Shown here one piece after another: positions 2,080-25,871 of a stretch of DNA of 26,540 nt. The notes below the pieces were generated by a model. That model made no database searches, was not told the DNA's origin, and saw nothing but the letters and a program-made list of their open reading frames with translations. This DNA comes from a virus, in IMG/VR virus record IMGVR_UViG_3300028844_006665, positions 1 through 26,540 of that record, one strand, 5' to 3'. Position numbers and translations under genes: made by a program. Each line of letters starts with the position of its first letter. Position 1 is the stretch's first letter.

Positions 2080-2080
2080 A

Positions 2081-8128: not shown

Positions 8129-8136
8129 GCATCGTC

Positions 8137-8164: not shown

Positions 8165-8205
8165 GTAGAAAGTCAAGAAAACCAACGATAGCAATAAAAT
8201 ACACG

Positions 8206-8251: not shown

Positions 8252-8257
8252 GCATCT

Positions 8258-8467: not shown

Positions 8468-8474
8468 GCGGTCA

Positions 8475-8930: not shown

Positions 8931-8975
8931 CAATGTGCATAGTGGCGGAATCGAGAAGGGCGTAAGGGCTTTATC

Positions 8976-9269: not shown

Positions 9270-9586
9270 TGACAGCCACGCCCGGCATCGAGACATGGCT
9301 GCGAACGGCCGAGCCGGGCGAGGTGTACCTCTATTACGTCGGCTTTTTGGCCATCGACAAATCCAAATATACAGACACCAAGCGCCTGCGGACCGCTACA
9401 AAGGCAACGCGTCTTGCCAGAGAGGGCAAAGTCTTCCTCGTTCAGCGCCACCTTGGGAAAGCAAAGTTCGAATATCTCGCCATCAAGGCGAAGCAGGAGA
9501 ACAAGTGCCGCACTTGGTGGAACCGTGACTTCGAGCCGGTCGCCGCTAACGACATTATGGGCGGGGGTAAAACCCGATGCAGCTAA
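9269..9586 (+). CDS. Small hypothetical phage early protein
   Basis: A 105-residue basic protein starting at an ATG that overlaps the previous stop (TGATGA). Visible segments: PGEVYLYYVGFLAIDKSKY, then a Lys/Arg-rich helical part, and FEYLAIKAKQENKCRTWWNRDFEPV. The strand-rich start and the basic middle could bind nucleic acid. It overlaps the following helicase gene by 10 bases, so the two are probably co-translated. No family recognised. Confidence 0.6.
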   Translation: MTATPGIETWLRTAEPGEVYLYYVGFLAIDKSKYTDTKRLRTATKATRLAREGKVFLVQRHLGKAKFEYLAIKAKQENKCRTWWNRDFEPVAANDIMGGGKTRCS

Positions 9587-10968: not shown

Positions 10969-11167
10969 CAGCATGCGCGAGGCGGATTACCGCTTCAATT
11001 ATCTGGAAGATATAGACCTCGATACCATCGAGCTCGATTATCGGGACGACCCCTGCGTCGTGTTTTTATGTCAAAGTCTTCGGACGGAACGCCGTGACCG
11101 TGCGGTCGAACGGGAGAGTATGGGTGCCGAGATCGACGATCTCAAATGGAACGGCGTCTGCAACTGA
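10958..11167 (+). CDS. Small acidic hypothetical protein
   Basis: A 69-residue protein. Although an earlier ATG exists at 10928, AAAGGAG at 10947-10953 sits just upstream of the ATG at 10958, which is therefore taken as the start. The middle is strongly acidic (YLEDIDLDTIELDYRDDP), with a polar helical end. It overlaps the helicase by 11 bases and its stop overlaps the next ATG by one base (TGATG), so it is a real operon member. No family recognised. Confidence 0.6.
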   Translation: MRRNSMREADYRFNYLEDIDLDTIELDYRDDPCVVFLCQSLRTERRDRAVERESMGAEIDDLKWNGVCN

Positions 11168-12306
11168 TGGCTGCTCATTCAAACATCATGGGCGGCTCGA
11201 ACGCATCGCGACGGATGAATTGCTATGCGTCCTACCGGCTTGAGCTGGAGGCACCGGAACCACCTGCCTCCAAGTTCGCTGTCGAGGGAACGTTTCATCA
11301 CGACGTCATCGAGCAGCACTTCAATGGCAAGTCTTACGCCGAGCTTGAGGGATACACCCGAGACGGTTTTACGCTGACCCAGGAATACATACGCGAACTG
11401 CATTATCCGGCAGTCGCCGCGTGGCAACAGCTCCTGAAAAAGTATGGCGTGGAAGAGGTCGAATACATGACCGAGGCGCGGGTGTCCTATCCGGGCGTCG
11501 ATGCGTTTGGCACAGTGGACGTGCTCGGCACTTCTGACGAATACACGATAATCGGTGACTGGAAGTTTGGCCGCGGCGTGCGTGCCGGACCATCGGCACT
11601 TGAATATCAGCTTCCATTCTATGCGGCAGCGGCGCGCGTGACACCAGACTGTTCGGATATGTTCAGCCCGGACAAGAAAATCATCGTTGCCGCGATCCAG
11701 CCCGCCATGGACATGCCACTGAGTGACCGGGTCATGGAGTATGATGAGGTTGTGGCCTTCGAGAAGAGGGTGCGCGACACCATCCTGATCATGACGGCGG
11801 GGGAAGCTCTCCCACCCACGGCTGGAAAGCACTGTCGTTGGTGCCGGGCGGCCGCATTATGCCCTGCCAAGAAGTCGCTCGCGACCGCAACCGCCGTTAC
11901 CGAAGTCGACAAGGAAAAGCTCAACGCGGATGAGGTTGGTTTTTACCTCAAGATCGCGGACGAGCTGGAACACTGGATTTCATCGATCCGTTCTCATGCC
12001 CACCAACAGTTGGAAGGGGGCCAGGACGTGACCGGCTACAAGCTGGTGCCGAAGCAGGCACGGCGGCGGTGGTCGAGTGTGACGGAAGCCGAACAGATGT
12101 TCGAGCGTCACGGTATCGCGTTCTCAGAGTTTATGGATTCGAAACTGATTTCGCCCGCAAAGGCGAAAAGGGTCTTGAAGGCAAACGGTATCGATGCCGA
12201 CGCCTTCGAGATGTTGATTGTGGCGACCTCAAGTGGGTCGTCACTCGTCCCGCAAGACGATCCCCGTCCTGCAATTACTGACACTATAAGGAATTTAGAA
12301 GTATGA
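11167..12306 (+). CDS. DUF2800 PD-(D/E)XK nuclease, RecB/Cas4-like
   Basis: A 379-residue phage nuclease. The N-terminus MGGSNASRRMNCYASYRLE is the DUF2800/RecB-like entry motif that selects ends; the catalytic core shows FGTVDVLG followed by IIGDWKFGRG (Asp and Lys of the D-x-K pair), then YQLPFYAAA. A C-x2-C-x5-C cluster (HCRWCRAAALCPA) near residue 235 is like the iron-sulfur ligands of Cas4/AddB relatives. The C-terminal 130 residues are helical and may bind DNA. The ATG at 11146 would extend into the previous gene; the ATG at 11167 overlaps its stop and is preferred. It probably supplies an exonuclease for recombination-dependent replication. Confidence 0.85.
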   Translation: MAAHSNIMGGSNASRRMNCYASYRLELEAPEPPASKFAVEGTFHHDVIEQHFNGKSYAELEGYTRDGFTLTQEYIRELHYPAVAAWQQLLKKYGVEEVEYMTEARVSYPGVDAFGTVDVLGTSDEYTIIGDWKFGRGVRAGPSALEYQLPFYAAAARVTPDCSDMFSPDKKIIVAAIQPAMDMPLSDRVMEYDEVVAFEKRVRDTILIMTAGEALPPTAGKHCRWCRAAALCPAKKSLATATAVTEVDKEKLNADEVGFYLKIADELEHWISSIRSHAHQQLEGGQDVTGYKLVPKQARRRWSSVTEAEQMFERHGIAFSEFMDSKLISPAKAKRVLKANGIDADAFEMLIVATSSGSSLVPQDDPRPAITDTIRNLEV

Positions 12307-12974
12307 ATATGTTAGCAGTTTTCGAGAAGAACCGTGAAGCCCTTCAATCCTTTGAGCAGATGGCGCTCGAGGGTGCGCGGGGTGCGTTAAGTTTCCTGAA
12401 GTTCACCAAAGGCATTTGGGTTGCCGGGATGGACGAACAGGAAATCGACCGAGACGAAGAACTGGCACTGGACCCCAAATCAATTTCCAAAGGTGGAATT
12501 TGCTGGAGTGGCGGATCGGTTTTGGACGAGCGATTTGAGACTTTGGCATCGGGTCGAATGGTCAACCTTGGCGAGCTGCCGGACCACGGTCCATACGCCA
12601 ATGATGATGACGGCTGGAAGGCAGCCGTACATTGCAAGTTCAAGTCGCTGACGACTGGTGAAGAGTATTCCTTCTCCAGCACTTCGCACGGCGGCAGGAA
12701 GGCGCTCGCGACTGTGACCAAGGAGTTCGTCGCCCGGATGAAGTCGGGTGAGAGTGATCTGGTCCCGATCGTGCGCCTTTCGTCCGACGGTTATAAGCAC
12801 AAGCTGTATGGCTACGTTGCAACACCGGTGATCGAGATCGTTGGCTGGTCCAACGACGACGATCTGCAGGCGGGTAACGTCGATGTTGTTGAAGAAGTAG
12901 CCGAGGAAGCACCGACGCCAAAAAGGCGCAAGGTTGCCGCCTCGGCCATCAGCAACGGGTCGCTGCCTAGCTAA
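12303..12974 (+). CDS. Phage early protein of unknown function
   Basis: A 223-residue protein overlapping the nuclease stop by four bases. Residues 20-190 look globular and strand-rich, with KGGICWSGGSVLDERFETL, a central KAAVHCKFKSLTTGEEYSFS block and a GYKHKLYGYVATPVIEIVGW end. The last 35 residues are acidic then basic and disordered (VVEEVAEEAPTPKRRK). An acidic disordered tail and a place between a DUF2800 nuclease and the polymerase resemble phage single-strand-binding proteins, but no motif proves that. A terminator-like hairpin follows. Function is therefore unassigned. Confidence 0.65.
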   Translation: MNMLAVFEKNREALQSFEQMALEGARGALSFLKFTKGIWVAGMDEQEIDRDEELALDPKSISKGGICWSGGSVLDERFETLASGRMVNLGELPDHGPYANDDDGWKAAVHCKFKSLTTGEEYSFSSTSHGGRKALATVTKEFVARMKSGESDLVPIVRLSSDGYKHKLYGYVATPVIEIVGWSNDDDLQAGNVDVVEEVAEEAPTPKRRKVAASAISNGSLPS

Positions 12975-12990
12975 TCGCTGCCACGAGGGG

Positions 12991-13010
12991 CGGGGTGGTG
13001 GTGCACCCCG
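12991..13010 (+). terminator. Hairpin terminator before the replication gene
   Basis: CGGGGTG and CACCCCG form a seven-base perfect stem around GTGGTG, followed by TCTCTCAGTTTTCC. The T-run begins eight bases after the stem, so it may act as a leaky terminator or an attenuator ahead of the very large replication gene. Confidence 0.5.
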
Positions 13011-13050
13011 TCTCTCAGTTTTCCTAATAACAGAAGATTCGGATGGTGAC

Positions 13051-13110
13051 ATGGAAAAACCGGTCGTACCAAATCGATCCTCCTATCAAACTATCGAAGG
13101 CCGTCGATGA
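13051..13110 (+). CDS. Possible 19-residue leader peptide
   Basis: ATG at 13051 encodes MEKPVVPNRSSYQTIEGRR and stops at a TGA (13108-13110) that overlaps the ATG of the replication protein (ATGA). The overlap suggests translational coupling. No good ribosome-binding site is seen, and another tiny frame (from 13043) covers the same DNA, so this is tentative. Confidence 0.25.
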   Translation: MEKPVVPNRSSYQTIEGRR

Positions 13111-16100
13111 TCGGGCCCGCTGAAGTAGCGGCTGCGATTGGCGGCAATTCCCGCGAAGGCGATGGATACGTTGCCTTCTGTCCACTGCATGAAGCAGACG
13201 GGAAATCACACAACCCCTCCCTGATCCTTTCAGAAGGTCATTCTAAACCGGTCATCGGTCATTGCCGGGCGGGGTGCTGCCAGGATGACATTAATGCTGC
13301 GGTTGATGAGATCGTCGAGCGCCTCGAAGCAGGCGAAACCGTGACTCCGATCGAGAGCAAAGTCGAAATCAAGAAGTCAGGAAACAAGCTGCACGCCCGT
13401 ATCCTGAGGGAGGGTGCCCCCACGGACGCGTATCAATATGACGACATTGACGGGAATTATGTTGTCACGAAGATCCGCTGGGAAGCCGTCATCGACGGGC
13501 GGCGTGAGAAGACATTCCAATTCTGTAATCAGCAACTGCCTGCAACGAGCCCGTCCGCATTCCGCATGCCGGAAGCTGCGGCAATGCCTTTATATAATGC
13601 GCACGCTCTAAGAGATCTGGAGTCTGACGACCTCGTCGTGATTTGCGAGGGCGAGAAGGACGCCAATACCATGCTGGGCCTCGATTACGTTGCGGTATCG
13701 ACACATAACGGCGTAGCAGGGTGGAGCAGTCAGAGCGCTGGCTGTTTGCAGGGTCGCCATGTAGCCATCGTGCCAGACAACGACGACGCAGGACACAAAT
13801 ATGCCAAGAAGGTAATCAAAGCGCTCTCTCCATTCGCCAAAAGCGTGAAGGTCATCGAGCTGCCCGGACTGAAAGATAAGGGTGACGTTACAGACTGGGT
13901 TGATGCCGGCGGGACCGAGCAACAATTTTGGGAACTCTACACCGGGCAGTCTGAGGAGGATCTTGGTGGCCCCAATCCTGAGTGGAGAACGACACTCTCG
14001 CGAAACGCGCAGGGCGCCATACGATCGAATGACTTTAATTTAAATATCATGCTGTCGCGGTCCCCCGAGTTTCACGGGCTGTTTCGTTATAACCACTTTC
14101 AAAATGTTATTGAGCTGTGGCGAGCGATACCCGGCAGTGATGACACTGGCCCGTTCCCAAGAGTTTGGCAGGATACAGACGAGACGGATGTCCTGGTCTG
14201 GGCGCAGCGAGCAGTGTTCCCGTCAATGGCGCGCTCCAAGATCATGCCGGCCGTCCAGGCTGTCGCCGCTGACAATGGCTATGACCCGCTGGTCGACTAT
14301 CTCGACATGCTGGCGTGGGACGGGGAGGAACGTCTTGATTGCTTCCTGCAGGAATATCTCGGGGCTGAAGGTGTCGACCGTTATATAAGTGCGGTGGGTC
14401 GTATGTGGGCCATATCCGCAGTTGCTCGTGCCTATCAGCCCGGATGCCAAGTCGACACCATGCTCGTACTGGAGGGACGCCAGGGGCTTTATAAGTCGTC
14501 GGCTTTACGAGCCCTGGTGCCGCATGAAGAGTGGTTCTCTGACGACATCAGCTCGATGCGCGGCGATAAGGACGACAAGCTGGCGCTGTTCGGGCGCATG
14601 ATCATCGAGATCAAAGAACTCGAGGCGCTGCGGAAGGCTGAGATTGGCGCTATCAAATCGTTTATCGATACACGGGTCGATAAGATCCGTGTACCTTACG
14701 GTAGATCGGTCCAGTCCTTTCCGCGGCGGTGTGTCATGGCCGGGTCGTACAATCCAACGGGCCACGGGTATCTGAAAGATGCATCCGGCGGTCGGCGTTT
14801 CTGGCCCGTAACAATCAAACATCTGGCCGACATCGATGGGCTGCTGGCGATTCGTGATCAGCTATGGGCCGAGGCGGTGGTGGCCTATAAGACCGGTGAA
14901 AAATGGTGGACGTTCGACCGCGACCTCATGAAGCTTATCGAGGCAGAACAGGAAGAGCGCTATCAGGTCGAACCGATTGAGGAGTTGGTTCACAGTTACA
15001 TCGATAACGAGTGTCTTGCGGATGATCAGGATGGTGCGCACAACATCCGTCGATCGTGGATACCCCGCAAAGAGCCATTAGACACATTCTTCACGCATAA
15101 CTTCTGTGAGGATGTATTGCTTCGATCGTGGGACCAGGTGAGGCGCCCTGATCTGAATATTATTGGTCAGGCGATGACCCGCATCGGGTGGACAAAGGGC
15201 AAATTATGGAACGCTCGCATCAGCAAAACGAGCACCGGGTGGAAGCGTCCTGACACTGAAAACCGACCTCACCCTCCGAGAAAAACCACCTCACCCTCTG
15301 ACAAAATTGCCGCAAAAAGTGATGCACAGGCATCCGCTGCGTTGCGTGGGAAGGTGCAAAACGCCGCCGTGGAGACGGAAAACGTAGCCGTTTTGTCGAA
15401 AACCTCACCCTCTGACCCCCAAAGGGTGAGGGAGGGTGAGGTAAAGGGTGAGGTGCTAAGTTATTCCAGCGCAACAGAAAAAGGTAAAACCTCACCCTCC
15501 TCACCCTCTTTTCCTATTAACTTTGTGGAAAGTAATGAGGGGTTAGATACAGGGGTATATATAAAGTTTTGGGACACTGAGGGTGAGGTTGGCCTCCACG
15601 ACGCTCGCTCGGCACTGAAGAGCGCCCTCGACGACGGGATCGTCGGGTTCGACCTTGAGACGACGGGACTGTCGCCGGTCGACGACAGCCGGGCCCGACT
15701 GATGCAGGTCTGGCGCGACGATCACTGTCACGTTTTCGATCTCGATGTGTTTGGTGGCCTCGAGGCATTCGGCGATCTGCTGGAAGGCTCCGACCTTGTC
15801 GCCTTCAACGCACTTTTCGAAATGAGGTGGCTCAGGGCTGCGGACATTGATGTCGTCCCTCACGACCTGATGTTAGCCTGGTCGGCGGTTTATGGCGGCA
15901 CATTAAAAATAACGCTCGAGCATGTTGTGAAGGAGCTGCTGGGCGTTGAATTGGACAAGACGATGCAGAAGTCGGACTGGTCGGGTGAGTTGACCAAAGA
16001 TCAGATCCAGTACGCCTTCGATGATGCGTACTTCACGCTCATGGCTTGGCGGAAGCTGACGGGCATCATGGCCCCGGAGCAGGTTGCCGGATACGAGCTA

Positions 16101-17345
16101 TTCAAGAATTCACAACGGCCCGTCATGAGAATGATGGAAGCCGGCGTTGGGTTCGACATCGACGGCCATGCCGAACTGCTCTCACGATTTGAACGAAAGT
16201 TCATCTGGGCGGAAGATTGGTTAGCGCGCCACGTACCCGACGTGAAGAACTGGTCGAGCTCTTCGCAGGTTGCGAAATGGTTGAACGATTCTTTGCCTGA
16301 GAACGTGAAGGGACGGTGGCCTCGTACCGAAAAGACACTGGCCATGAAGACCGGTGCCGATGCCTGTAAGCAATTCATCCTCGATGTCGACCGCGACCTT
16401 CGCCGCGTCTTTTGGGCCTACCAAATTCTCCAAACCTATAGGAAATACATAAGCACCTATGGCGAGAAGCTTGTTCGCAATCATTATCGGGATAGGCGCC
16501 TCTATGGGAACTTCAGGATCGGCCGAGCCATCACCGGGCGAATGGCCTCCGAGAAACCAAACCTCCAGAACATGCCGGGCAGGGGTCCTATAGGAGCTGC
16601 GTTTCGCAGTCTGTTTATAGCACCGCCTGGTAGCCGTCTGGTAATTGCTGATTACAGTCAGATCGAGGTTCGCGTCGGTGGCATACTGGCTGATGAGCCA
16701 GCCTTCAAAGAAATGTTTGAACGTGGCTACGATGTTCACGCCGCGACGGCCGCGCTGATGCTCGGCAAGGAATACGATGAGGTTTTTGACAGCGAAAAGA
16801 AAAGTGTCCGTCCGGAGTACAAGCATGCGCGGTCGGCAGCGAAGGAAATTACATTCGGAATGCAATACGGCATGGGTGACCGGACGCTTGCCAGCAAGTT
16901 GAACCTCACGGTCCGGGAGGCGCGTCAGGAAATACGCAAATGGGAAGAGAACTTTCCCAAGGTAACAGAATGGAGAGAGAAGAGTGCGGAGTATGGTGCT
17001 CGCAATAAGGGGCTGGTGATGCCGAGCGGCCGCACGATTACTCTCGATTATAGACCGTCTCCACAAGCCTGTTACAATTATCCGGTTCAAGGCACTGCCG
17101 GCGACGTGATGTATGCCGCACTGGTCGAATTGGATCGGCGCCTCGATGAGGCGGACATCGATGCAGTGCCATTGTTGGTCGTTCACGATGAGATCGTGCT
17201 TGAGGCGGCAGAAGAAGATGCGGAGGAAGCGGCGAGGATACTCGAAGAGGCAATGGTCGCCGGGTTCAGGAAACTGTTCCCGAACGGCGGCATCAACAAT
17301 TTGGTCGAAGCGAGTGTCTGTAGCACGTGGGCAGATAAATCATGA
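13107..17345 (+). CDS. Primase-helicase-exonuclease-DNA polymerase fusion
   Basis: One uninterrupted frame of 1412 codons. Domains in order: primase-type zinc finger (Cys25, His28, Cys53, Cys57); TOPRIM at about 176-265 (Glu181 in CEGEKD, Asp224/226 in PDNDDAG); VirE/D5-type ATPase at about 310-700 with Walker A GRQGLYKS (457-464) and an acidic strand MIIEIKE; a low-complexity Ser/Pro/Lys linker at about 709-830; DEDDy 3'-5' exonuclease at about 835-965 (Asp849/Glu851 in GFDLETTGL, NALFE, YAFDDAY); family A polymerase to the end, with motif A DYSQIEVR (Asp1182), motif B RSAAKEITFGMQYGMG, motif C VVHDEIVLE (Asp1361). It would make primers, unwind, proofread and extend. These functions are usually on separate phage proteins. 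In exonuclease motif II the usual Asp is Glu. Confidence 0.93.
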   Translation: MIGPAEVAAAIGGNSREGDGYVAFCPLHEADGKSHNPSLILSEGHSKPVIGHCRAGCCQDDINAAVDEIVERLEAGETVTPIESKVEIKKSGNKLHARILREGAPTDAYQYDDIDGNYVVTKIRWEAVIDGRREKTFQFCNQQLPATSPSAFRMPEAAAMPLYNAHALRDLESDDLVVICEGEKDANTMLGLDYVAVSTHNGVAGWSSQSAGCLQGRHVAIVPDNDDAGHKYAKKVIKALSPFAKSVKVIELPGLKDKGDVTDWVDAGGTEQQFWELYTGQSEEDLGGPNPEWRTTLSRNAQGAIRSNDFNLNIMLSRSPEFHGLFRYNHFQNVIELWRAIPGSDDTGPFPRVWQDTDETDVLVWAQRAVFPSMARSKIMPAVQAVAADNGYDPLVDYLDMLAWDGEERLDCFLQEYLGAEGVDRYISAVGRMWAISAVARAYQPGCQVDTMLVLEGRQGLYKSSALRALVPHEEWFSDDISSMRGDKDDKLALFGRMIIEIKELEALRKAEIGAIKSFIDTRVDKIRVPYGRSVQSFPRRCVMAGSYNPTGHGYLKDASGGRRFWPVTIKHLADIDGLLAIRDQLWAEAVVAYKTGEKWWTFDRDLMKLIEAEQEERYQVEPIEELVHSYIDNECLADDQDGAHNIRRSWIPRKEPLDTFFTHNFCEDVLLRSWDQVRRPDLNIIGQAMTRIGWTKGKLWNARISKTSTGWKRPDTENRPHPPRKTTSPSDKIAAKSDAQASAALRGKVQNAAVETENVAVLSKTSPSDPQRVREGEVKGEVLSYSSATEKGKTSPSSPSFPINFVESNEGLDTGVYIKFWDTEGEVGLHDARSALKSALDDGIVGFDLETTGLSPVDDSRARLMQVWRDDHCHVFDLDVFGGLEAFGDLLEGSDLVAFNALFEMRWLRAADIDVVPHDLMLAWSAVYGGTLKITLEHVVKELLGVELDKTMQKSDWSGELTKDQIQYAFDDAYFTLMAWRKLTGIMAPEQVAGYELFKNSQRPVMRMMEAGVGFDIDGHAELLSRFERKFIWAEDWLARHVPDVKNWSSSSQVAKWLNDSLPENVKGRWPRTEKTLAMKTGADACKQFILDVDRDLRRVFWAYQILQTYRKYISTYGEKLVRNHYRDRRLYGNFRIGRAITGRMASEKPNLQNMPGRGPIGAAFRSLFIAPPGSRLVIADYSQIEVRVGGILADEPAFKEMFERGYDVHAATAALMLGKEYDEVFDSEKKSVRPEYKHARSAAKEITFGMQYGMGDRTLASKLNLTVREARQEIRKWEENFPKVTEWREKSAEYGARNKGLVMPSGRTITLDYRPSPQACYNYPVQGTAGDVMYAALVELDRRLDEADIDAVPLLVVHDEIVLEAAEEDAEEAARILEEAMVAGFRKLFPNGGINNLVEASVCSTWADKS
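15267..15588. repeat. CCTCACCC repeat cluster in the linker region, candidate origin
   Basis: The 8-mer CCTCACCC occurs five times on the plus strand (from 15267, 15289, 15403, 15490 and 15499, each extended to CCTCACCCTC) and four times as its complement GGGTGAGG (from 15424, 15434, 15446 and 15581). Opposed copies at 15403-15412 and 15432-15441 can form a hairpin. All lie in DNA encoding the variable linker between helicase and exonuclease. The following 15520-15565 stretch is AT-rich. Iteron clusters inside the initiator gene are known from lambda O; here the same role is proposed by analogy. Confidence 0.6.
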
Positions 17346-17824
17346 CGGCGGCCGTACAGAATAAATCAGCGATACGCATCAACGAAGACACCGTCATCGA
17401 AGAGACGCCCCAGGCGGGCGTGTTCCGCAGACGGCGGATCGGCCTGCTCGAGCGTTGGGCTGACGAGGGGGTTATCACACAAAGACAACTCGACGCGGCT
17501 GACGCGTTCGGTGCGATCTTCGAGCGCGCGCAGCTCCGCGAGCGGTACGCGATGTCGACGTCTGCGATAGATCGGGTCGATGGCGGCGGCAGCGGCGGCG
17601 AGGATAGTCGATCCGCCGGGCTCTACGACGCTCGAGAGCGGGTCATCGAGGCGTTGGCGCTCTTAGGCGACAGTATGGGCCCAGTGGTCTGGGATGTCGT
17701 CGGATCCGGTCTCAGCCTGCGGGAGCATGTATCGAGACAGGTGGGCGTGACACGGGTCACGGTTCACGAGGCACGTGGACGGTTGATCGCGGGGCTCGAC
17801 ATCCTGGCACGGGCGTGGCTTTGA
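17342..17824 (+). CDS. Small HTH-like regulator at the end of the early operon
   Basis: A 160-residue protein whose ATG overlaps the polymerase stop (ATGA). Residues 30-65 are helical (RRRIGLLERWADEGVITQRQLDAADAFGAIFERAQLRERY), and the C-terminus LREHVSRQVGVTRVTVHEARGRLIAGLDILA has helix-turn-helix spacing. This layout, with the GLLERW-like and WDVV-G-SL segments, resembles DUF6456-type alphaproteobacterial proteins. A Gly/Ser-rich insert (DGGGSGGED) separates the halves. Last in the early operon, it could switch on later genes; that is positional inference only. Confidence 0.55.
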   Translation: MTAAVQNKSAIRINEDTVIEETPQAGVFRRRRIGLLERWADEGVITQRQLDAADAFGAIFERAQLRERYAMSTSAIDRVDGGGSGGEDSRSAGLYDARERVIEALALLGDSMGPVVWDVVGSGLSLREHVSRQVGVTRVTVHEARGRLIAGLDILARAWL

Positions 17825-17987: not shown

Positions 17988-20009
17988 ATGCACCGCTTGC
18001 TCGCCATCGCAGCTCTCGTTCTATCCTTCGGCATATCGTCTGCCGAGGCGGCCAAGCGTGTTGCATTGGTGATTGGTAACAACAGCTACAAAACACTTCC
18101 TGACCTGGACAACGCGCGAAAGGACGCTGACGGAATTGCATCCAAACTCCGGAGCCTGGGTTGGGATGTCGTCTTGAAGAAAGATTTAAGCCGGCGGCAG
18201 GCCTATCGACAAATCGCGACGTTCGAAAGCAAGCTCCGGGATGCCGAAGTGGGTCTGGTTTATTATGCGGGGCATGGCATTCAAAAGGATGGCAAAAACT
18301 ATCTGATACCATCCGATGCCGAGATAGAGGTCGAGGAGGATCTGCGGTCGGAAGCCTTTACATCATCGGACATTCTTGAAGCGATGGAGAAAGCGGGCGC
18401 TCCGATGAACATCGTCATCCTGGACTCCTGTCGGGACAATCCGTTGCCAAGACGGTCCCGTTCGGCTGAACGTGGTCTTGCCGCTCCCTCGCTGCCGGCG
18501 GGTATTAAAGGCACAGCGATTGTGTTCTCTGCTGGTCCCGGACAGGTGGCAATGGATGGGCCGAAGAACGGACATGGTGTGTTTACGGGCGAGTTGCTGA
18601 AGGTGCTGGATAGACCGGGATTAAAACTCGAAGAGGTCTTTAAACAGACCGCTCGGCAGGTGGCGGTCCGGACCAACAGCAAACAGAAGCCATGGATGAA
18701 TTCATCGGTGACGAGCGATTTTTATTTCCAGGAAGAGAAGGCTACGCCGGCTGCTTCTGTGCCCGCTGCAGATAAGGAGACAGTGTTCTGGCAGTCGATA
18801 GCAAACAGTGATCGCGCTGGGGATTATAAAGCCTACCTATCGCAGTATCCAAGTGGAGCTTTCGCAGCGCTCGCTCGCAGTCGTTTGTCCGCACTAAAGG
18901 AGACTAAAACGGCGAGCCTGTCTCCACCAAATTACACGATCGAGGCAATGGACGAGACGCTGGTAGCGCTGCGTTCAGCGAACGTGCGTGAACGGCCTAC
19001 GACATCTTCCGCAAAGTTGGCGACCCTAAAATCAGGTTTTGCAGTCGAGGTGACGGGTAAGACACAGTTTGAAGGTAAGGACTGGTACCGGATCGCGATG
19101 TCTGGCCGCAGCGCTTATGTCTTTGGGTCGTTACTGGGTGAGAAAGCGACCCCGGTGGTGGGCGTCTACCCATCTCTGGCACCGGGCAAGACGTTCCGGG
19201 ACTGCGCGGATTGCCCGGAAATGGTGGTGATCCCATCAGGTTCATTCAGGATGGGTGATTTGAGTGGTGGTGGTTACAAGTATGAAAAACCGGTTCACAA
19301 GGTGCGGATCGGTTACAGTTTTGCGGTTGGAAAATACGAGGTAACGCGAGGAGAATTCGCAAAGTTCATCACGGAGACAGGCTACGATGCGGGCAACTCC
19401 TGTTATGTCTGGTCGGGTACGAAGTGGGAGAGCCGGTCAGGTAAAACCTGGAGGGATCCGGGATATAGCCAAACTGATCGAGATCCTGTGGCCTGCGTGA
19501 GCTGGGACGATGTAAAAGCGTATGTTGACTGGATGTCTCGGAAGAGTGGCAAGGAATATCGTCTTCTGAGTGAGTCCGAGTGGGAGTACATGGCACGGGC
19601 TGGGAGTACGTCGAAATATCCATTTGGTGCCAGTGATACAGCTCTTTGCCAACACGGGAACGGAGCGGATCAAAGTACGAGTTTTGATTGGCGTAATAAG
19701 TCTTGTAATGATGGGGTTGGTGAGAAGACATCCCCGGCGGGAAGTTATAAGGCTAATAAATTCGGTGTCTATGACACGGTCGGTAATGTCTGGGAGTTGG
19801 TAGAAGACTGCTGGAACAAGAACTACCACGGCGCACCCATTGATGGCAGTGCATGGACGAGCGGCGGTGACTGTTCAAAGCGCGTCTTGCGGGGCGGTTC
19901 CTGGTACAGCGGTCCTAGGCTCCTCCGTTCCGCGCTCCGCAACTGGAACGATGCCTCGTTTCGGTACAACCTCCACGGGTTCCGGATTGCCAGGACGCTT
20001 TCGCGCTAG
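17988..20009 (+). CDS. Secreted caspase-SH3-FGE protein, probable DGR target
   Basis: A 673-residue protein. A signal peptide (about residues 1-21, LLAIAALVLSFGISSAEAA) predicts export. A C14 caspase-like domain follows at about 22-245, with catalytic His96 in YYAGHG and Cys148 in LDSCRDNP. A spacer (about 260-300) contains YLSQYPSGAFAALARSRL; then a bacterial SH3 domain at about 318-385 (ALRSANVRERP...SGRSAYVFGSLLG). The C-terminal half is a formylglycine-generating-enzyme (FGE) type C-type-lectin fold from about 405 (PEMVVIPSGSFRMG, EVTRGEFAKF, LLSESEWEYMARAG, YDTVGNVWELVED), ending in RVLRGGSWYSGPRLLRSALR and GFRIARTLSR. That end is where DGRs diversify such proteins. The fold would be the binding face and the caspase the effector. 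Base composition is close to the phage part. Confidence 0.85.
   Translation: MHRLLAIAALVLSFGISSAEAAKRVALVIGNNSYKTLPDLDNARKDADGIASKLRSLGWDVVLKKDLSRRQAYRQIATFESKLRDAEVGLVYYAGHGIQKDGKNYLIPSDAEIEVEEDLRSEAFTSSDILEAMEKAGAPMNIVILDSCRDNPLPRRSRSAERGLAAPSLPAGIKGTAIVFSAGPGQVAMDGPKNGHGVFTGELLKVLDRPGLKLEEVFKQTARQVAVRTNSKQKPWMNSSVTSDFYFQEEKATPAASVPAADKETVFWQSIANSDRAGDYKAYLSQYPSGAFAALARSRLSALKETKTASLSPPNYTIEAMDETLVALRSANVRERPTTSSAKLATLKSGFAVEVTGKTQFEGKDWYRIAMSGRSAYVFGSLLGEKATPVVGVYPSLAPGKTFRDCADCPEMVVIPSGSFRMGDLSGGGYKYEKPVHKVRIGYSFAVGKYEVTRGEFAKFITETGYDAGNSCYVWSGTKWESRSGKTWRDPGYSQTDRDPVACVSWDDVKAYVDWMSRKSGKEYRLLSESEWEYMARAGSTSKYPFGASDTALCQHGNGADQSTSFDWRNKSCNDGVGEKTSPAGSYKANKFGVYDTVGNVWELVEDCWNKNYHGAPIDGSAWTSGGDCSKRVLRGGSWYSGPRLLRSALRNWNDASFRYNLHGFRIARTLSR
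19881..19997 (+). other. Putative DGR variable region
   Basis: The last ~117 coding bases before the stop encode the FGE binding surface. Codons where DGR template repeats usually have AAC/AAT are here TAC, AGC, GGT (19905-19913), CTC, CTC, AAC, GAT, TTT, TAC, AAC, CTC and CAC: nearly all NNC or NNT, as adenine-specific mutagenesis would leave. Constant positions (RGGSW, LRSA, GFRIAR) are intact. The end, GGGTTCCGGATTGCCAGGAC, is the expected place for the initiation-of-mutagenic-homing sequence. No template copy was found in the window. Confidence 0.6.
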
Positions 20010-20220: not shown

Positions 20221-20381
20221 ACCTACCCACACACACAAAAATCCACTAAACTGATTTCTATGAGGAAACTAACCGCCACCATCTGTCTGACCTTTGCCGT
20301 GCTTCTTGGAAGTGTGGGGATGAGTGCGAGTGCTGATTACCAAAAGGATCTAACCGCATACAAGAGTGGTGATTACGCAAC
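20221..20381 (+). repeat. Export-leader module, copy 1
   Basis: The upstream sequence CTACCCACACACACAAAAATC... plus ATG at 20260 and codons for MRKLTATICLTFAVLLGS, continuing in near-identity with copy 4 to GGTGATTACGCAAC (ends 20381), after which the two sequences part abruptly. This is the longest shared stretch between copies. Confidence 0.8.
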
Positions 20382-20412
20382 ATTTTGTAATACCGAAGGT
20401 GGCGATGACTAA
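20260..20412 (+). pseudogene. Truncated Sel1-family secreted protein remnant
   Basis: A 50-codon frame: signal peptide MRKLTATICLTFAVLLGSVG, then ADYQKDLTAYKSGDYAT, the start of a Sel1-repeat protein as in the gene at 23495. At base 20381 homology stops and the frame runs through CNTEGGDD to a TAA. The following lipoprotein gene starts inside this tail (ATG 20405). So only the leader and the first 20 mature residues of a Sel1 gene survive. The export leader is intact, so a short secreted peptide could still be made. Confidence 0.7.
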
Positions 20413-20989
20413 TTTGATAAAAGCAAAGGTTTCCAATTTATCTGCTACAGCAGTGCTTTTAATTTCTCTCGCTGTCACCGGATGCCAAACCACAGAAAAT
20501 AGTTTTGAGCCGCCAGATACATCACTGCGTATGATCCAAAGCACTGCTGATTATTGTCAAATTACAGATTCAAATTTTGCAATTGATTTAGATTATCTGG
20601 AATTATCGGTTTGGTGGTCTGATAAATGTGAGGATGGTTCTCCGAAAGGTTCGGGGAGACTGATTATATTTAAGGGTGATGCAATAGTTGAAGAATATGT
20701 TGGTAAAATGGAGAAAGGTCCAGTTGGAATGGCGAGACATGGCCAGGGTGTCATTACCCATTATTTTAGAGAAACTATAATGGGTGAATCTAAACAATTT
20801 CCTCGCTGGAGATATGAAGGTGAATTCCTATTTAATGAGCGAACTGGCAATGGGTTTTACACAAATGAAACCGGCTTGCGAATTAAGGGCTCGTTTAAAG
20901 ACGGTAAACCTAATGGAGTTTGCGCTGTAACGTTCCCTAACGGCACCTCTAAAAATATTGAGTTTGATGAAGGAAAACCAATCCAGTAA
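20405..20989 (+). CDS. MORN-like repeat lipoprotein
   Basis: A 194-residue protein. The frame is open from 20366, but the ATG at 20405 starts a proper lipoprotein signal: MTNLIKAKVSNLSATAVLLI then SLAVTGC, with lipobox Cys at about residue 27. The mature part contains MORN-like units: KGSGRLIIF, HGQGVITHY, WRYEGEFLFNERTGNGFYTN and IKGSFKDGKPNGVCAVTFPNG. MORN repeats are structural and can bind lipid or partner proteins. The gene is AT-richer than its surroundings and begins eight bases before the stop of the truncated Sel1 leader frame, so it may be translated by coupling from it. It looks inserted into a Sel1 gene. Confidence 0.7.
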   Translation: MTNLIKAKVSNLSATAVLLISLAVTGCQTTENSFEPPDTSLRMIQSTADYCQITDSNFAIDLDYLELSVWWSDKCEDGSPKGSGRLIIFKGDAIVEEYVGKMEKGPVGMARHGQGVITHYFRETIMGESKQFPRWRYEGEFLFNERTGNGFYTNETGLRIKGSFKDGKPNGVCAVTFPNGTSKNIEFDEGKPIQ

Positions 20990-21202
20990 GGAATCTCTTA
21001 TTGGCCGAGAAAAAATATGCGCAGCGTGAAATTAGAAACTCTTCAATGATAGCAGCTGGGGCTGTTCAATTCACAACGAGAATAGTCAAGTATATCGGAA
21101 AACTCCGTTAATACTGAACAAATCTAGCACTCTCTTGAGATGATGAACCAGGCTTTTAAAGATAATAGCAGATATAGGTTAGCCTTATGGGTAACGCAGA
21201 CT

Positions 21203-21296
21203 ACACAGGTATGCCAAATCCACTGAACTCATTTCTATGAAAAAACTGACCGCAATATTCTGTCTAACCATTACCGTGCTTTATGGGGCTACGGGA
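21203..21296 (+). repeat. Export-leader module, copy 2
   Basis: A diverged copy: upstream ...GCCAAATCCACTGAACTCATTTCT, ATG at 21237, then codons for MKKLTAIFCLTITVLYG. It is the least similar of the five upstream parts. The end of the signal has changed to GATGC, converting it to a lipoprotein signal. Confidence 0.75.
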
Positions 21297-22610
21297 TGTC
21301 AGACATCTACAGTTCTGTCCTATTCAGGCCAGTCAGGAGGGAGCCTGCGGCCCTGCACAGGACACCCTGAATCACTTCTATGGACTTATTGTCGGGGATC
21401 CTACCGCCTTAGCAATGGCGAGAGTTATGTTGGAGATATTATCAATGGGAAACCTGGCGGAAAAGGAGAAGTTACGTTCAGTGCACCCCATCCTGATGCA
21501 GGACAGAAATTGGTTGGTGAATTTACAGAGGGCAAGCTTTTAAAGGGAACAGTAACAAACAGGAGACCTCATATTTATGCGGGTTTAGAAAAGTCTGGTA
21601 AATTTTTAGACGGTAAACTTTATGGGAATGTAATTGTTATATGGCGTGTACCACATGCATTGGCGGGTCAGAAATACACTGGTGAAGCGAGAGATAACAA
21701 GCGGCATGGGCAAGGGGTACAAACGTATCCCAAAGGAGGAGTGGACGAAGGTATTTGGCAAGATGGTAGATTTATAAAGCCGCAAAAAACGACTAGTGAA
21801 TTTTTGGCGAAAAGCCGTAAAGAAATTGCCAGTCTTAAAAATCAGAACCAATCCAAACCCAAACAGGTTGCCAAAAGACCTGAACCCAAGAAGTCACCAC
21901 CACCTAAATCGGGTTACACAGGTTCTGGTTTCTTTGTCTCCAAACTTGGTCACATTATTACCAATGAGCATGTGGTCCGTCAGTGCGGTTCAGTGACTGT
22001 CGGAGACAATGCTAACAAACAGATTAGTGCATCCATTCTGGAGAAAGATAAACGCAACGACCTTGCTCTTCTGCGTATATCCTCCACCGAGATGGCATCT
22101 GCAGAGACCAAATCACTGATAAGTAAACTAGGTGCCAAAAAACTTGGACTGAAACTTGTTCCCCTCGCATCTGGTGGACTGATGCGTTCAGATGACATTG
22201 AACTCGGTGAGAGTGTAATGGTTGCGGGTTATCCTTACGGGGAACTGTACAGCAATACCATCAAGGTTACAGGTGGAATGGTGAGTGCTGTAAAAGGTAT
22301 GGGTGATGACAGTGCTCAGTTCCAGATGGATGCTGCGGTTCAACCCGGCAACTCTGGCGGTCCTATCTATGACGAGAATGGAAACATTGTCGGTGTGGTC
22401 ATATCCCAACTGAACAAACTGAAAGTCGCAAAGACGATTGGGTCACTTCCAGAGAATGTGAACTTCGGTATCAAGGCATCCACCGTGAGACAGTTCCTGA
22501 CCTCTGCTGGATTACCCACCAAGTGGTCTAATCGGACGAAGAGAAAGTCCACAAAGGAATTGGCACAGATTGCCAAGAACCAGACCGTGATGGTGGTCTG
22601 TAATCCTTGA
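21237..22610 (+). CDS. MORN-repeat trypsin-like protease lipoprotein
   Basis: A 457-residue protein. The leader shared with neighbouring genes ends in LYGATGC, a lipobox at Cys21, so export and lipid anchoring are expected. Residues 50-185 hold MORN units (YVGDIINGKPGGKGEVTF, LVGEFTEGKLLKGTV, YTGEARDNKRHGQGVQTYPKGG). A Lys/Pro-rich linker (about 205-228) leads to a trypsin-like HtrA-type protease with the full triad: His245 in ITNEHVV, Asp275 in RNDLALLRI, Ser373 in PGNSGGPI. No PDZ domain follows. It is probably a periplasmic or surface protease targeted by its MORN part. Codon use and AT content match the other cargo genes. Confidence 0.85.
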   Translation: MKKLTAIFCLTITVLYGATGCQTSTVLSYSGQSGGSLRPCTGHPESLLWTYCRGSYRLSNGESYVGDIINGKPGGKGEVTFSAPHPDAGQKLVGEFTEGKLLKGTVTNRRPHIYAGLEKSGKFLDGKLYGNVIVIWRVPHALAGQKYTGEARDNKRHGQGVQTYPKGGVDEGIWQDGRFIKPQKTTSEFLAKSRKEIASLKNQNQSKPKQVAKRPEPKKSPPPKSGYTGSGFFVSKLGHIITNEHVVRQCGSVTVGDNANKQISASILEKDKRNDLALLRISSTEMASAETKSLISKLGAKKLGLKLVPLASGGLMRSDDIELGESVMVAGYPYGELYSNTIKVTGGMVSAVKGMGDDSAQFQMDAAVQPGNSGGPIYDENGNIVGVVISQLNKLKVAKTIGSLPENVNFGIKASTVRQFLTSAGLPTKWSNRTKRKSTKELAQIAKNQTVMVVCNP

Positions 22611-22613
22611 TGA

Positions 22614-22720
22614 GTTCTCTACCCACACACTCAAAACACTCTAAATCCATTCCTATGAGAAAACTGACCGCAACACTCTGTCTGACGATTGCTGTGCTTC
22701 TTGGAATGACGGGGATGAGT
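22614..22720 (+). repeat. Export-leader module, copy 3
   Basis: Upstream CTCTACCCACACACTCAAAA, ATG at 22655, codons for MRKLTATLCLTIAVLLGMTG, ending near ATGAGT (22720). Immediately after, sequence becomes extremely AT-rich and unrelated to the other copies. Confidence 0.85.
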
Positions 22721-23269
22721 TCCAAAATGTTAAAGTTTATTAAATATATTTCTACTTTTTTAATATGCGTATCAATTGGATTAGGTTATTTATTTTCTGA
22801 TAATTTATCTTTCGCTGAAAATATAAAATACATGGAAGAGAAATTAAAATATTTAAAACAAAAAAAACAACTAGAGTCTCAAATAGAAGTAATAAATAAA
22901 AGATTAATGGACTTGGATAAGCAGTATAAAACCAGTGGGAAAATAAATAATACAACCAAAGATAAGAAAATTGATAATTCTAAATTAAAAAATGTATTTG
23001 GTAAGAATTACCTTATGAAGGGTGAAACTGATACTGGTTTTTGGGAAATAAGCGCTCTTGCTGATGGTACATTAGAACTATCCATGAGTAATGGATATTC
23101 AGATTATGGTAAATGGTGGATGGAAGGTAATACTTGGTGCCGAAAATTTGATGAAGCACGGAATTCTGTTACAAGTTGTTATATGATACAGCATGTCGAA
23201 GATAATAAATATTTGATTGAAAAAACCAAAGGTAATGGAGTTGATAAGACAACCGTCACCATTGACTGA
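22655..23269 (+). CDS. Leader fused to an AT-rich coiled-coil exported protein
   Basis: A 204-residue frame. Residues 1-24 are the shared export leader. A second Met (ATG 22727) then starts another full signal sequence, MLKFIKYISTFLICVSIGLG, so the payload brought its own. After that comes a coiled coil (ENIKYMEEKLKYLKQKKQLESQIEVINKRLMDLDK), a polar spacer and a C-terminal domain of about 85 residues with strand pattern (GFWEISALADGTLELSMSNG, WWMEGNTWCRKFDE) and two Cys (TWC, TSC) that could form a disulfide. From 22727 on, the DNA is far more AT-rich than the leader. Translation may begin at either Met. No family recognised. Confidence 0.65.
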   Translation: MRKLTATLCLTIAVLLGMTGMSSKMLKFIKYISTFLICVSIGLGYLFSDNLSFAENIKYMEEKLKYLKQKKQLESQIEVINKRLMDLDKQYKTSGKINNTTKDKKIDNSKLKNVFGKNYLMKGETDTGFWEISALADGTLELSMSNGYSDYGKWWMEGNTWCRKFDEARNSVTSCYMIQHVEDNKYLIEKTKGNGVDKTTVTID

Positions 23270-23313
23270 TTAGACCAAAGACCATTGCTGAAGGTCCTTC
23301 TGGACATCGCATT

Positions 23314-23344
23314 AGACCGCAGTTTTTCCTCTCTGCGGTCTTTT
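23314..23344 (+). terminator. Rho-independent terminator
   Basis: AGACCGCAG (23314-23322) and CTGCGGTCT (23333-23341) form a perfect nine-pair stem around TTTTTCCTCT, followed by TTT. It ends the transcript of the coiled-coil gene. Confidence 0.85.
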
Positions 23345-23453
23345 GCGTGCTTATCTAAAAAAGATGAAAAAGAAGATGCTTCCGTTGTGATGTAAATCTC
23401 CTATCCAACGAGATTTCCAACTGACCTGTGGGTCTTTGATACGGAGACATTTG

Positions 23454-23615
23454 TTCCTCTACCCTCAAACTCAAATCCCTCTAAACTCATTCCGATGAGA
23501 AAACTGACCGCAATATTCTGCCTGACGATTGCCGTGCTTCTTGGAAGTATGGGGATGAGTGAGAGTGCTGATTTACTAAAGGGTGCTTTCGCATACAAGA
23601 GTGGTGATTACGCAA
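23454..23615 (+). repeat. Export-leader module, copy 4
   Basis: Upstream TTCCTCTACCCTCAAACTCA..., ATG at 23495, codons for MRKLTAIFCLTIAVLLGSMG and on through AYKSGDYAT, shared with copy 1 up to GATTACGCAAC (ends 23615). This copy is followed by an intact Sel1 gene and probably shows the original arrangement. Confidence 0.85.
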
Positions 23616-24553
23616 CTGCTCTTCGTGAGTTTCGACCTCTTGCCGAACAGGGGAATGCCGATGCCCAGTTCATGCTGGGTGGGATGTACTATAACGGAGA
23701 AGGAGTTCCAAAGAACGATAAGACTGCGGTGAAGTGGTACAGACTTGCTGCCGAACAGGGGATTGCCGCTGCTCAAAACATCCTAGGTGAAATATATCGC
23801 AGAGGACATGGTGTTCCACAGAACCATAAGACTGCGGTGAAGTGGTACAAACTTGCTGCCGAACAAGGTGATGCCCTTGCCCAGAACAATCTGGGTGCGA
23901 TGTACGCACTTGGACACGGGGTCATACAGGATTGGGTCTATGCCCATATGTGGGGAAATATTGGTGCCTCTAATGGTAGTGAGAGAGGTGCCAAAGTGCG
24001 AGACCTCGCTGCTAAAAATATGACCCCATCCCAACTTGAAACCGCAAAGAAACTTGCCCGTGAATGTATCCGTAAGAAATACAAAGGGTGTGAGAGTGCC
24101 GGTCACCAAAAGGGTCTAACTGCTGCTCAAAGTGCTGATTTCCAAAAGGGTCTAACCGCATACCATAGTGGTGATTACGCATCTGCCATGCGGGAATGGA
24201 CACCTCTTGCTGAACAGGGGGATGCCTCTGCCCAAACACTAATTGGTGCGATGTACAACGAAGGAAAAGGTGTTCCACAGGACTATAAGACTTCAGTGAA
24301 GTGGTTCAAACTTGCTGCCGAACAAGGTGATGCCGATGCCCAAGGAAATCTGGGTATGATGTATGCCTTTGGGTGGGGAGTACTAAAAGATTATGTCTAT
24401 GCCCATATGTGGGGAAACATCGCTGCGAAGAATGGAAATGAGTTGGGTGCGAAGTTGCGAGATGATTTTGAGAAGAAAATGACCCCATCCCAACTTGAAA
24501 CCGCACAGAAACTTGCTCGAGAATGTGTCCGTAAGAAATACAAAGGGTGTTGA
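23495..24553 (+). CDS. Exported double Sel1-repeat protein (fused tandem copies)
   Basis: A 352-residue protein with a signal peptide (about residues 1-25, cleaved near SESA-D). Sel1 units such as WTPLAEQGDASAQTLIGAMY and KTAVKWYRLAAEQGIAAAQN repeat with a 36-residue period. It is two gene copies in one: residues 1-197 end in LARECIRKKYKGC, which in related genes is the C-terminus, and then SADFQKGLTAYHSGDYAS restarts a mature Sel1 protein ending again in LARECVRKKYKGC. The stop present in the other copies (ggtgtTGAgtt) is lost here by one base (ggtgtGAGagt). Sel1 repeats form helical scaffolds for protein contacts, probably in the periplasm. Confidence 0.85.
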   Translation: MRKLTAIFCLTIAVLLGSMGMSESADLLKGAFAYKSGDYATALREFRPLAEQGNADAQFMLGGMYYNGEGVPKNDKTAVKWYRLAAEQGIAAAQNILGEIYRRGHGVPQNHKTAVKWYKLAAEQGDALAQNNLGAMYALGHGVIQDWVYAHMWGNIGASNGSERGAKVRDLAAKNMTPSQLETAKKLARECIRKKYKGCESAGHQKGLTAAQSADFQKGLTAYHSGDYASAMREWTPLAEQGDASAQTLIGAMYNEGKGVPQDYKTSVKWFKLAAEQGDADAQGNLGMMYAFGWGVLKDYVYAHMWGNIAAKNGNELGAKLRDDFEKKMTPSQLETAQKLARECVRKKYKGC

Positions 24554-24605
24554 GTTAGAACTCCACTCAGACTGCTAATGACTTTAACAAACATAAGGAA
24601 AATTA

Positions 24606-24887
24606 ATGTCACTCGATCTCTCCACGCTCAATAAAGGTCAAACCCGTAAATTAAATGCTCTTCGTAAAAGTCTGGGAAATGAGATCGCAGATAATGCATT
24701 TGCAAAATGGATGAAAACGCAGACCAAAGAGAACTCGGTTAAGATCGATCCTGTTGCTGAGAAAATCAAAGTTGCCTTATCCTCGTTGGTGCATGACAGC
24801 GCATTCCGTTTGGGCAGCAAGGGATACATTATCAAACGGTCTAAGGGTAAGGGTGCATCTGGGTTTGTAGTCAGTAAGGTTGAGTAG
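24606..24887 (+). CDS. Small basic hypothetical protein
   Basis: A 93-residue protein with AAGGAAA nine bases before the ATG. Sequence is Lys-rich (LSTLNKGQTRKLNALRKSLGNEIADNAFAKWMKTQ...IDPVAEKIKVALSSLVHDS) and ends in GYIIKRSKGKGASGFVVSKVE, where the Lys/Gly-rich hairpin-like end could contact nucleic acid. It has no export leader, unlike its neighbours, and lies between two Sel1 genes. No family recognised. Confidence 0.6.
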   Translation: MSLDLSTLNKGQTRKLNALRKSLGNEIADNAFAKWMKTQTKENSVKIDPVAEKIKVALSSLVHDSAFRLGSKGYIIKRSKGKGASGFVVSKVE

Positions 24888-24894
24888 GGTCAGG

Positions 24895-24991
24895 TTCCTC
24901 TACCCACACACTCAAAACCCTCTAAATCCAATTCTATGAAAAAACTGACCGCAACACTCTGCTTGACCCTTGCCGTGCTTTTTGGAAGTGA
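24895..24991 (+). repeat. Export-leader module, copy 5
   Basis: Upstream TTCCTCTACCCACACACTCA, ATG at 24936, codons for MKKLTATLCLTLAVLFGS. The upstream 40 bases are nearly identical to copy 3. None of the five copies has a recognisable Shine-Dalgarno sequence; the pyrimidine/A-rich upstream sequence is what is conserved. Confidence 0.85.
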
Positions 24992-25625
24992 GGTGAGAGC
25001 ATCTGATTTTTTGACCGGATTGGAAGAATATAAGAAAGGAAATTTGGGAACCGCATTAAGGATATGGAAACCACTTGCTGAGCAAGGCAATGCAGATGCC
25101 CAATATAATTTGGGTATGATGTACAAACGTGGTCGAGTTGTTCAAAGGGATTTTCAGAAAGCAGTGAAGTGGTTTGAACTTGCTAGTAAAAACGGCAGCA
25201 CTGAGGGAACCTATAATCTCGCAGTTGCGTATCACAAAGGACAACATGTAGAAAAAAATCTCGAATACGCATTGAAGTTGTACCATATCGCTGCTTGGAA
25301 CGGTTATGCAGATGCGGAATTTCAAGTTGGTAATTTTGCATTTCAACGCAAAGAATATAAATCCGCCTCAAATTGGTATCGCCTTGCTGCTGAACAGGGG
25401 CATACCGAAGCACAACAATCCCTGGGTGCCTCGCATCACAAAGGTCTTGGTGTTCTTCAGGATTACGTTCGTGCTCATATGTGGGGAAATATTGCTGCCT
25501 CAAATGAGAGTGAGGAGGGCAGTAAATTGCTAGACCTCGTTACGAAACAAATGACCTCTGCACAACTCGAAAAAGCACAAGACCTTGCCCGTGAATGTGT
25601 CCGTAAGAAATACAAAGGGTGTTGA
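24936..25625 (+). CDS. Exported Sel1-repeat protein
   Basis: A 229-residue protein: signal peptide (about residues 1-22, cleavage near VRA-S), then YKKGNLGTALRIWKPLAEQG and Sel1 units (ADAQYNLGMMYKRGRVVQRD, FELASKNGSTEGTYNLAVAY, YRLAAEQGHTEAQQSLGASH). It ends in YVRAHMWGNIAASN...LARECVRKKYKGC, the same C-terminal module as both halves of the preceding Sel1 gene, and the TGA is retained. It differs from that gene mostly in the middle repeats. Likely a periplasmic scaffold; partners unknown. Confidence 0.85.
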   Translation: MKKLTATLCLTLAVLFGSEVRASDFLTGLEEYKKGNLGTALRIWKPLAEQGNADAQYNLGMMYKRGRVVQRDFQKAVKWFELASKNGSTEGTYNLAVAYHKGQHVEKNLEYALKLYHIAAWNGYADAEFQVGNFAFQRKEYKSASNWYRLAAEQGHTEAQQSLGASHHKGLGVLQDYVRAHMWGNIAASNESEEGSKLLDLVTKQMTSAQLEKAQDLARECVRKKYKGC

Positions 25626-25637: not shown

Positions 25638-25871
25638 CTAATCTCCACCCTTTTCCTCAAATGCGAAGTAGTCAGCATATCCACCCATCTCAAAACTTGT
25701 TCCTCTGGGTAGTCCTAACTTCTTGTCTATCAGTTTGAGGTCAGCAAAAGTTCCGTCATCTCCAAGAGCAGCAATCTCCTCATTCACTCTTTTTGCAATT
25801 GCGTCATAACCCGCATTTCGTAGTGGTTTTGAAAAACCCTTCAAGGATTCAATTTCGTCTTCAATCGTCAT
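25638..25871 (-). CDS. Small hypothetical protein
   Basis: A 77-residue acidic protein (MTIEDEIESLKGFSKPLRNAGYDAIAKRVNEEIAALGDDGTFADLKLIDKKLGLPRGTSF...FAFEEKGGD), mostly helical. Its ATG overlaps the end of the upstream membrane mini-gene (shared ATGACGATTGA), so the pair form an operon. It is convergent with the Sel1 gene, 12 bases apart. No family recognised. Confidence 0.6.
   Translation of the reverse strand: MTIEDEIESLKGFSKPLRNAGYDAIAKRVNEEIAALGDDGTFADLKLIDKKLGLPRGTSFEMGGYADYFAFEEKGGD

Follow-up and report, generated by a model that had tools for sequence, protein, structure and literature searches.

A repeated upstream and signal-peptide module in front of unrelated genes in a virus record and in marine Alphaproteobacteria, most likely the 5' end of a Sel1 gene

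The 26.5-kb virus record IMGVR_UViG_3300028844_006665 (IMG/VR; positions 1 to 26,540, the whole of which is called the window below) carries, in its right part, a short DNA module repeated in front of different genes (called payloads). Each module is about 100 nt long and consists of roughly 40 nt upstream of a start codon and 18-24 signal-peptide codons (the leader). A repeat search of the window returned a 104-nt unit in five copies, 65-87% identical to the reference copy starting at 22617. The module copies and their payloads were located as follows.

20222..20325, plus strand: module copy 1 (upstream element, ATG at 20260, signal-peptide codons), then a 50-aa Sel1 stub to 20412
20405..20989, plus strand: payload 1, MORN lipoprotein, gene complete, its ATG overlapping the stub stop at ATGACTAA
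21199..21302, plus strand: module copy 2, ATG at 21237
21237..22610, plus strand: payload 2, MORN and Trypsin_2, 457 aa, with a lipobox-like cysteine behind the leader
22617..22720, plus strand: module copy 3, ATG at 22655
22655..23269, plus strand: payload 3, an AT-rich coiled coil fused in frame to the leader
23457..23560, plus strand: module copy 4, ATG at 23495
23495..24553, plus strand: payload 4, two fused Sel1 genes (Pfam PF08238)
24521..24556, plus strand: Sel1 3' tail of payload 4 (ECVRKKYKGC and stop codon), conserved at the DNA level like the leader
24898..25001, plus strand: module copy 5, ATG at 24936
24936..25625, plus strand: payload 5, a Sel1 protein with three Sel1 repeats; Sel1 tail at 25593-25628

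In their first 54 coding bases, four of the copies were 76-89% identical to the one with its ATG at 22655, against 52% for the best non-module 54-mer on either strand of the window, so that the five leader copies which an earlier note on this DNA had placed at these ATGs are real. Pairwise identity of the copies was 0.62-0.92 across positions +1 to +54 and about 0.1-0.4 at +72 to +90 in all pairs but 20260/23495, the similarity of which goes on to about codon 40 by way of the Sel1 stub. Upstream, similarity extends to about -40 (in copy 20260 only with a 1-nt gap).

Behind the leader, different Pfam families were found in the window and in related genomes, as the earlier note had proposed in calling the sequence that follows unrelated or rearranged; the payloads at 23495 and 24936 share Sel1. 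The stub at 20260 terminates within ATGACTAA and, in addition to what the earlier note had seen there, is coupled to the complete MORN lipoprotein gene. The stop of payload 2 lies 6 nt ahead of the next module, and payload 3 has kept both an ATG (22727) and a signal peptide (MLKFIKYISTFLICV...) of its own. Payloads 4 and 5 scored 150.6 and 88.6 bits, respectively, against PF08238 (gathering cut-off 30.7). The "double Sel1" described at 23495 does comprise two Sel1 genes, the first of which reads through its Sel1 tail into the second, while the "single Sel1" at 24936 has to be corrected to three Sel1 repeats (Pfam). The read-through tail (24062-24097) has one T fewer than other tails (GGGTGTGAG versus GGGTGTTGAG), and because of this missing T the stop was lost and the two Sel1 genes were fused.

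The module is not confined to the window. In the GTDB genome collection, a degenerate pattern (M[KR]KLTA..CLT) found only 11 stretches, almost all from marine Rhodospirillaceae or other Alphaproteobacteria. Together with a sequence profile built from 33 module copies, and after duplicates had been collapsed, 94 distinct copies were obtained from 35 records, mostly of marine Alphaproteobacteria, with a maximum of 24 copies within one genome (profile scan); a shuffled control gave zero matches at the cut-off of the first profile scan. In two orders, 14 of 27 and 12 of 24 genomes carried the module, and in a class-wide sample, under stricter filters, only 9 of 240 did. With the leader as query on related genomes and the payloads listed, dozens of genomes were thus found to bear the module on unrelated payloads. 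The leader pattern had no match in viral_contigs, plasmids gave weak Sel1 matches only, and phages gave distant Sel1 matches only, with payload 3 unmatched. No description of the module was found in the published literature searched. One leader copy (locus L013, 7448-7479) stands at the extreme end of a 7.5-kb contig of the Nitrospinota bin UBA8248 and is probably a binning error.

Classification of 93 copies gave 33 Sel1 genes, 38 other genes and 22 short stubs, that is, 60 non-Sel1 copies. The Pfam families among the non-Sel1 payloads were MORN, Trypsin_2, Peptidase_C14, M23, His_Phos_1, DLH (dienelactone hydrolase) and Ricin_B_lectin, which are known to differ in fold; one further payload gave a weak, sub-threshold match to S33/Hydrolase_4, and many had no Pfam match at all. 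The position of the junction varies by copy, from about codon 11 to codon 40. Behind the leader, some payloads still have a start and/or signal peptide of their own (22727 in the window, 3349 in locus L122, and locus L164), and overlaps of the ATGA type between a stub stop and the next start were found at 20405-20412 in the window and at 2882 and 3349 in L122. One practical consequence is that annotating these genomes by N-terminal similarity will connect proteins that are not related.

The donor of the module is most likely the Sel1 gene family, of which, on comparison of the sequences, the module would be the 5' end. The Sel1 genes of these genomes share the 3' tail ECVRKKYKGC with its stop codon, conserved at the DNA level, and the same tail was detected downstream of 14 of the 60 non-Sel1 copies, including several stubs (cut-off 26; 98 kb of shuffled sequence gave no score above 0). 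Six of the 14 tails lie at most 36 nt from the payload stop: the tail begins 11 nt past the stop of an M23 gene in two genomes (L132, L207), 12 nt past a His_Phos stop (L212) and 36 nt past the CSNKDREYAK gene in two genomes (L098, L106), and it overlaps the end of a 554-aa gene (L164, genome G032), for which no homologue was found within the order of that genome and hence no state before joining. Sel1 codons are also left between leader and payload (SAD, ADFQ, and up to GDYA in the window stub). Because of the Sel1 tail downstream, or the Sel1 codons in between, the payload has in such cases replaced the body of a Sel1 gene; for the copies lacking a tail the same replacement is inferred.

Upstream part and leader are not always found together. 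The leader occurs without the usual upstream part at several loci (G007, G012, G019). Conversely, seven Sel1 loci on a 4.1-Mb contig of G032 (L273-L279) resemble the module in their upstream element and share its tail, yet their signal peptide is another one (MNRLLILPVLLLTLLVGTSAFSADYQKG), so that the two parts can be exchanged separately. A second, unrelated leader (MRKLILILSLMFSVILSSPSYA) was seen at locus L117 (G007:C2), where the neighbouring genes at 3390 and 4065 share it with 81-87% DNA identity, carry different payloads and show no similarity upstream. By its sequence, this pair looks to be the same kind of event from another donor.

One junction was resolved to the base by comparison of two close relatives, G011 and G012, in which the flanks of the site are collinear and 92.6% and 94.6% identical. 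From a tRNA-Pro, G012 has a 553-aa gene and, behind it, a two-gene operon made up of a carboxymuconolactone-decarboxylase-like and then a hydroxyisobutyrate-dehydrogenase-like gene (names given by reading the sequence, with no profile test; the 553-aa product resembles a thiamine-diphosphate enzyme). Between the same flanks, G011 has 1.7 kb with two Sel1-type leader genes and a leader stub, three leader units in all. The stub reads GTGAGTGCG joined to GCAAATACC, the gene of the 553-aa enzyme TTGAGTGCG joined to GCAAATACC, and ordinary leader copies have GTGAGTGCGAGTGCT at this point; the junction is TGAGTGCG, an 8-bp microhomology common to leader and enzyme gene. Through the fusion the stub runs on in frame into the final codons of the enzyme gene, and the stop beside the following start is therefore kept, so that the leader in G011 heads a cytoplasmic catabolic operon. 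The enzyme fragment in G011 is more easily explained as a remnant than as an addition, which suggests the direction of the change; neither enzyme gene nor array was found at this position in G007 and G019. Elsewhere in the same two genomes, the CSNKDREYAK gene and its Sel1 tail are followed by a decayed leader, directly in G012 and after two more leader genes (about 4 kb) in G011. The simplest reading of this difference is gain or loss of whole units through recombination between repeats. One array of G011 stands behind a tRNA-Pro; a tRNA insertion site was considered as a general rule and rejected, most arrays having no tRNA nearby.

The histidine phosphatases are a payload family that occurs with and without the leader. 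The leader-bearing members in G010, G030, G011 and G293 form one clade (support 99/100), and ten leaderless homologues used for comparison have signal peptides unrelated at the DNA level. Leader scores were -39 to -88 in the leaderless homologues and +23 to +64 in the leader-bearing ones, and G010 has one histidine phosphatase of each kind. This family thus acquired the leader, on the simplest reading once, and the leader now occurs in genomes of different orders.

The conserved upstream DNA is of two related types. No Shine-Dalgarno sequence was seen by eye ahead of the five window copies, in agreement with the earlier note, and a match of at least 4 nt was present in 5 of the 94 copies overall. 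A sigma-70 scan gave no match at the conserved upstream element and fewer matches than in shuffles, and RNAalifold, run on 33 copies, predicted no base pair in the module. A TAAACT-like hexamer (-13 to -8, in one upstream type) raised the idea of leaderless mRNAs, which is not claimed here, as the second type (TGTCAGACTTT) does not fit. The N-terminus of the leader reads, by inspection, as a Sec signal peptide. The upstream element would be a putative promoter that drives transcription, and the leader would drive Sec export, with some payloads gaining a lipobox-like cysteine; coupled stubs would supply translation initiation only. The proposal that the leader supplies secretion would hold for part of the copies and does not fit the short stubs coupled to genes with their own start, including the cytoplasmic catabolic operon.

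The overall explanation favoured here, with a probability of about 0.78, is that the 5' end of a Sel1 gene is reused on unrelated genes through illegitimate joining. It builds on the DNA shared by unrelated payloads, the remains of Sel1 that flank several payloads on either side, the junction seen before and after, and the payload family found with and without the leader. In marine Alphaproteobacteria the Sel1-repeat family would have multiplied, its copies both dispersed and in tandem, and illegitimate, microhomology-level recombination would repeatedly replace or delete the Sel1 body. Where the 5' end came to lie in frame with another gene, a new protein would gain a Sec leader; where a short open frame resulted, its stop overlapping or abutting the start of a complete gene, expression only would be gained. 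Units of leader and payload could then be gained and lost in arrays via recombination between repeats, and might spread between genomes, sometimes beside prophages. Microhomology joining may be the general route (one case resolved), and repeat recombination the way in which units move. Several points weigh against this explanation. A single junction is available at base resolution with a before state; 46 of the 60 non-Sel1 copies have no detectable Sel1 tail, nor was one found at any of the three non-Sel1 payloads of the window, and for all of these the route could differ. Independent joinings must number far fewer than 60, because some leader-payload pairs are old and common to several genomes. 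The genomes are mostly metagenome bins, and contigs often end inside arrays.

Ordinary tandem duplication would make all payloads diverged members of one secreted family, with the leader as its best conserved part, and the earlier note had named such a common ancestry as the finding that would overturn its view. About one third of the copies are indeed Sel1 genes, tandem Sel1 arrays exist, and leader-borne MORN-trypsin occurs in two separate genomes (the window and G234). Set against this are payload families with different folds, identity that is lost within a few codons, payloads with a start or signal peptide of their own behind the leader (as at 22727, L122 and L164) and leaderless homologues of one payload with unrelated signal peptides, which together contradict duplication of this kind and leave it very improbable. 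A mobile promoter element, in which the upstream 40-56 nt and the leader move alone as a small repeat and Sel1 is only the commonest host, would account for the upstream element with another signal peptide in G032 and for leaders without the usual upstream at the G007, G012 and G019 loci, where one part stands without the other and the two are thus separable. This too is very unlikely: neither inverted repeats nor a constant right edge was seen, non-Sel1 genes often retain Sel1 codons behind the leader (the 20260 stub to codon 40; ADFQ, SAD), and Sel1 tails stand behind some payloads.

Dedicated, integron-like capture, in which an adjacent serine recombinase or a phage-borne relative inserts units or payloads at a site within the leader, finds some ground in a serine recombinase of the same type convergent to the array end in G007:C2 and G002:C68, with a remnant in the window, in the conservation of both gene ends at the DNA level, third codon positions included, and in phage modules upstream in the window and in G002. 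It is nonetheless quite unlikely, given junctions from about codon 11 to 40, a module with no conserved structure, an 8-bp microhomology at the sole resolved junction, and a recombinase of the small invertase/resolvase type that is absent from the sequence examined around most leader copies. A phage-linked version, in which prophages of marine Alphaproteobacteria carry a leader-gene locus closed by the serine recombinase and the conserved gene ends serve as recombination sites for swapping in bodies with expression and export signals preattached, is likewise unlikely. The earlier note's "gene-capture locus" is therefore kept as regards capture, existing genes having acquired the leader (the G011 junction, the histidine phosphatases), and given up as regards integron-like insertion; the many junction codons, the lack of conserved structure, the microhomology joint and the Sel1 3' ends downstream all speak against the integron comparison as a mechanism.

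Among known systems, the closest idea is terminal reassortment of type III effectors, reportedly described by Stavrinides et al. in 2006, a study cited in PMC6460904, in which a shared N-terminus, with its export signal and upstream region, on otherwise unrelated proteins is said to give rise to chimaeric families. As a process, the array phenomenon is terminal reassortment: homologous N-terminal and upstream DNA, with an export signal, stands on non-homologous C-termini, and C-terminal homologues with other N-termini exist (the histidine phosphatases). One difference is the signal, which serves type III secretion in pathogens there, whereas that of the metagenome-derived marine bacteria looks like a signal peptide for Sec. 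Others are the donor, a Sel1 family whose 3' end is likewise conserved and has stayed behind some payloads as the tail, and the joinings that bring expression only. Integron cassette arrays likewise consist of unrelated genes separated by a repeated sequence, and in both cases units differ between sister genomes; in the present arrays the repeat is protein-coding and its edges vary. The RNAalifold result on the module sequence leaves no attC-like conserved hairpin, no integron integrase was found by the array (the only tyrosine integrase match of the window is phage-type and 18 kb away), and there is no constant recombination point, identity ending at different codons in different copies.

Polymorphic toxin systems (PMC3482391) also combine a constant 5' trafficking part with a variable 3' part and spare cassettes nearby, but here the constant part is a promoter-like region and signal peptide only. 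Pfam scans, in which many payloads matched nothing, gave no toxin domain; neither an immunity gene nor a 3' cassette standing alone was recognised. The Vpma surface lipoproteins of mycoplasmas are another case of multigene surface or export families rearranged by recombination; they vary by high-frequency site-specific recombination through a dedicated recombinase and within one family (PMC2268961), whereas the payloads here are unrelated and most copies have their own upstream region. The acquisition of working expression and export signals by new genes is usually inferred and rarely seen. In the present case the 5' end of one family stands on many unrelated genes across several bacterial orders, and the route can be dissected event by event because there are remnants on either side, junctions to compare between sister genomes, and homologues without the leader.

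The remaining features of the window lie around and between the leader genes.

1982..17824, strand unassigned: phage integrase, repressor and DNA-replication module, left of the array
17988..20009, plus strand: caspase domain, SH3 and FGE-sulfatase domain protein, flanking the array, no leader
24606..24887, plus strand: 93-aa gene without leader; homologue downstream of a trypsin gene in G016
25638..25871, minus strand: 77-aa gene convergent to the array; same position in G007:C2 and G002:C68
26221..26472, minus strand: serine recombinase remnant (invertase/resolvase type); complete copies beside leader genes in G007:C2 and G002:C68

The caspase-SH3-FGE gene stands directly right of the phage replication module, and its FGE-like pieces match host genomes of the family; queried against viral_contigs, the caspase-FGE protein and the primase-polymerase had no relatives. 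Past the array end, G007:C2 and G002:C68 have the small convergent gene and then the serine recombinase, convergent as well, and the window has the same small gene and the recombinase remnant. G002 has a phage recombination-replication module upstream of its array, in the same direction, from which the replication module of the window differs. Some arrays are thus linked to prophages, a link that may account for spread. The recombinase remnant, close to the right end of the record, has a perfect 38-nt palindrome (26438-26475, GATATGACAAGGGCCCCGATCGGGGCCCTTGTCATATC), either a natural hairpin or an assembly effect. In G002:C68 (locus L136, reverse strand, 2988-3297), the helicase gene of the phage module breaks off after about 77 codons and adjoins a Sel1 tail remnant directly, and this joint stands in front of a leader-Sel1 gene.
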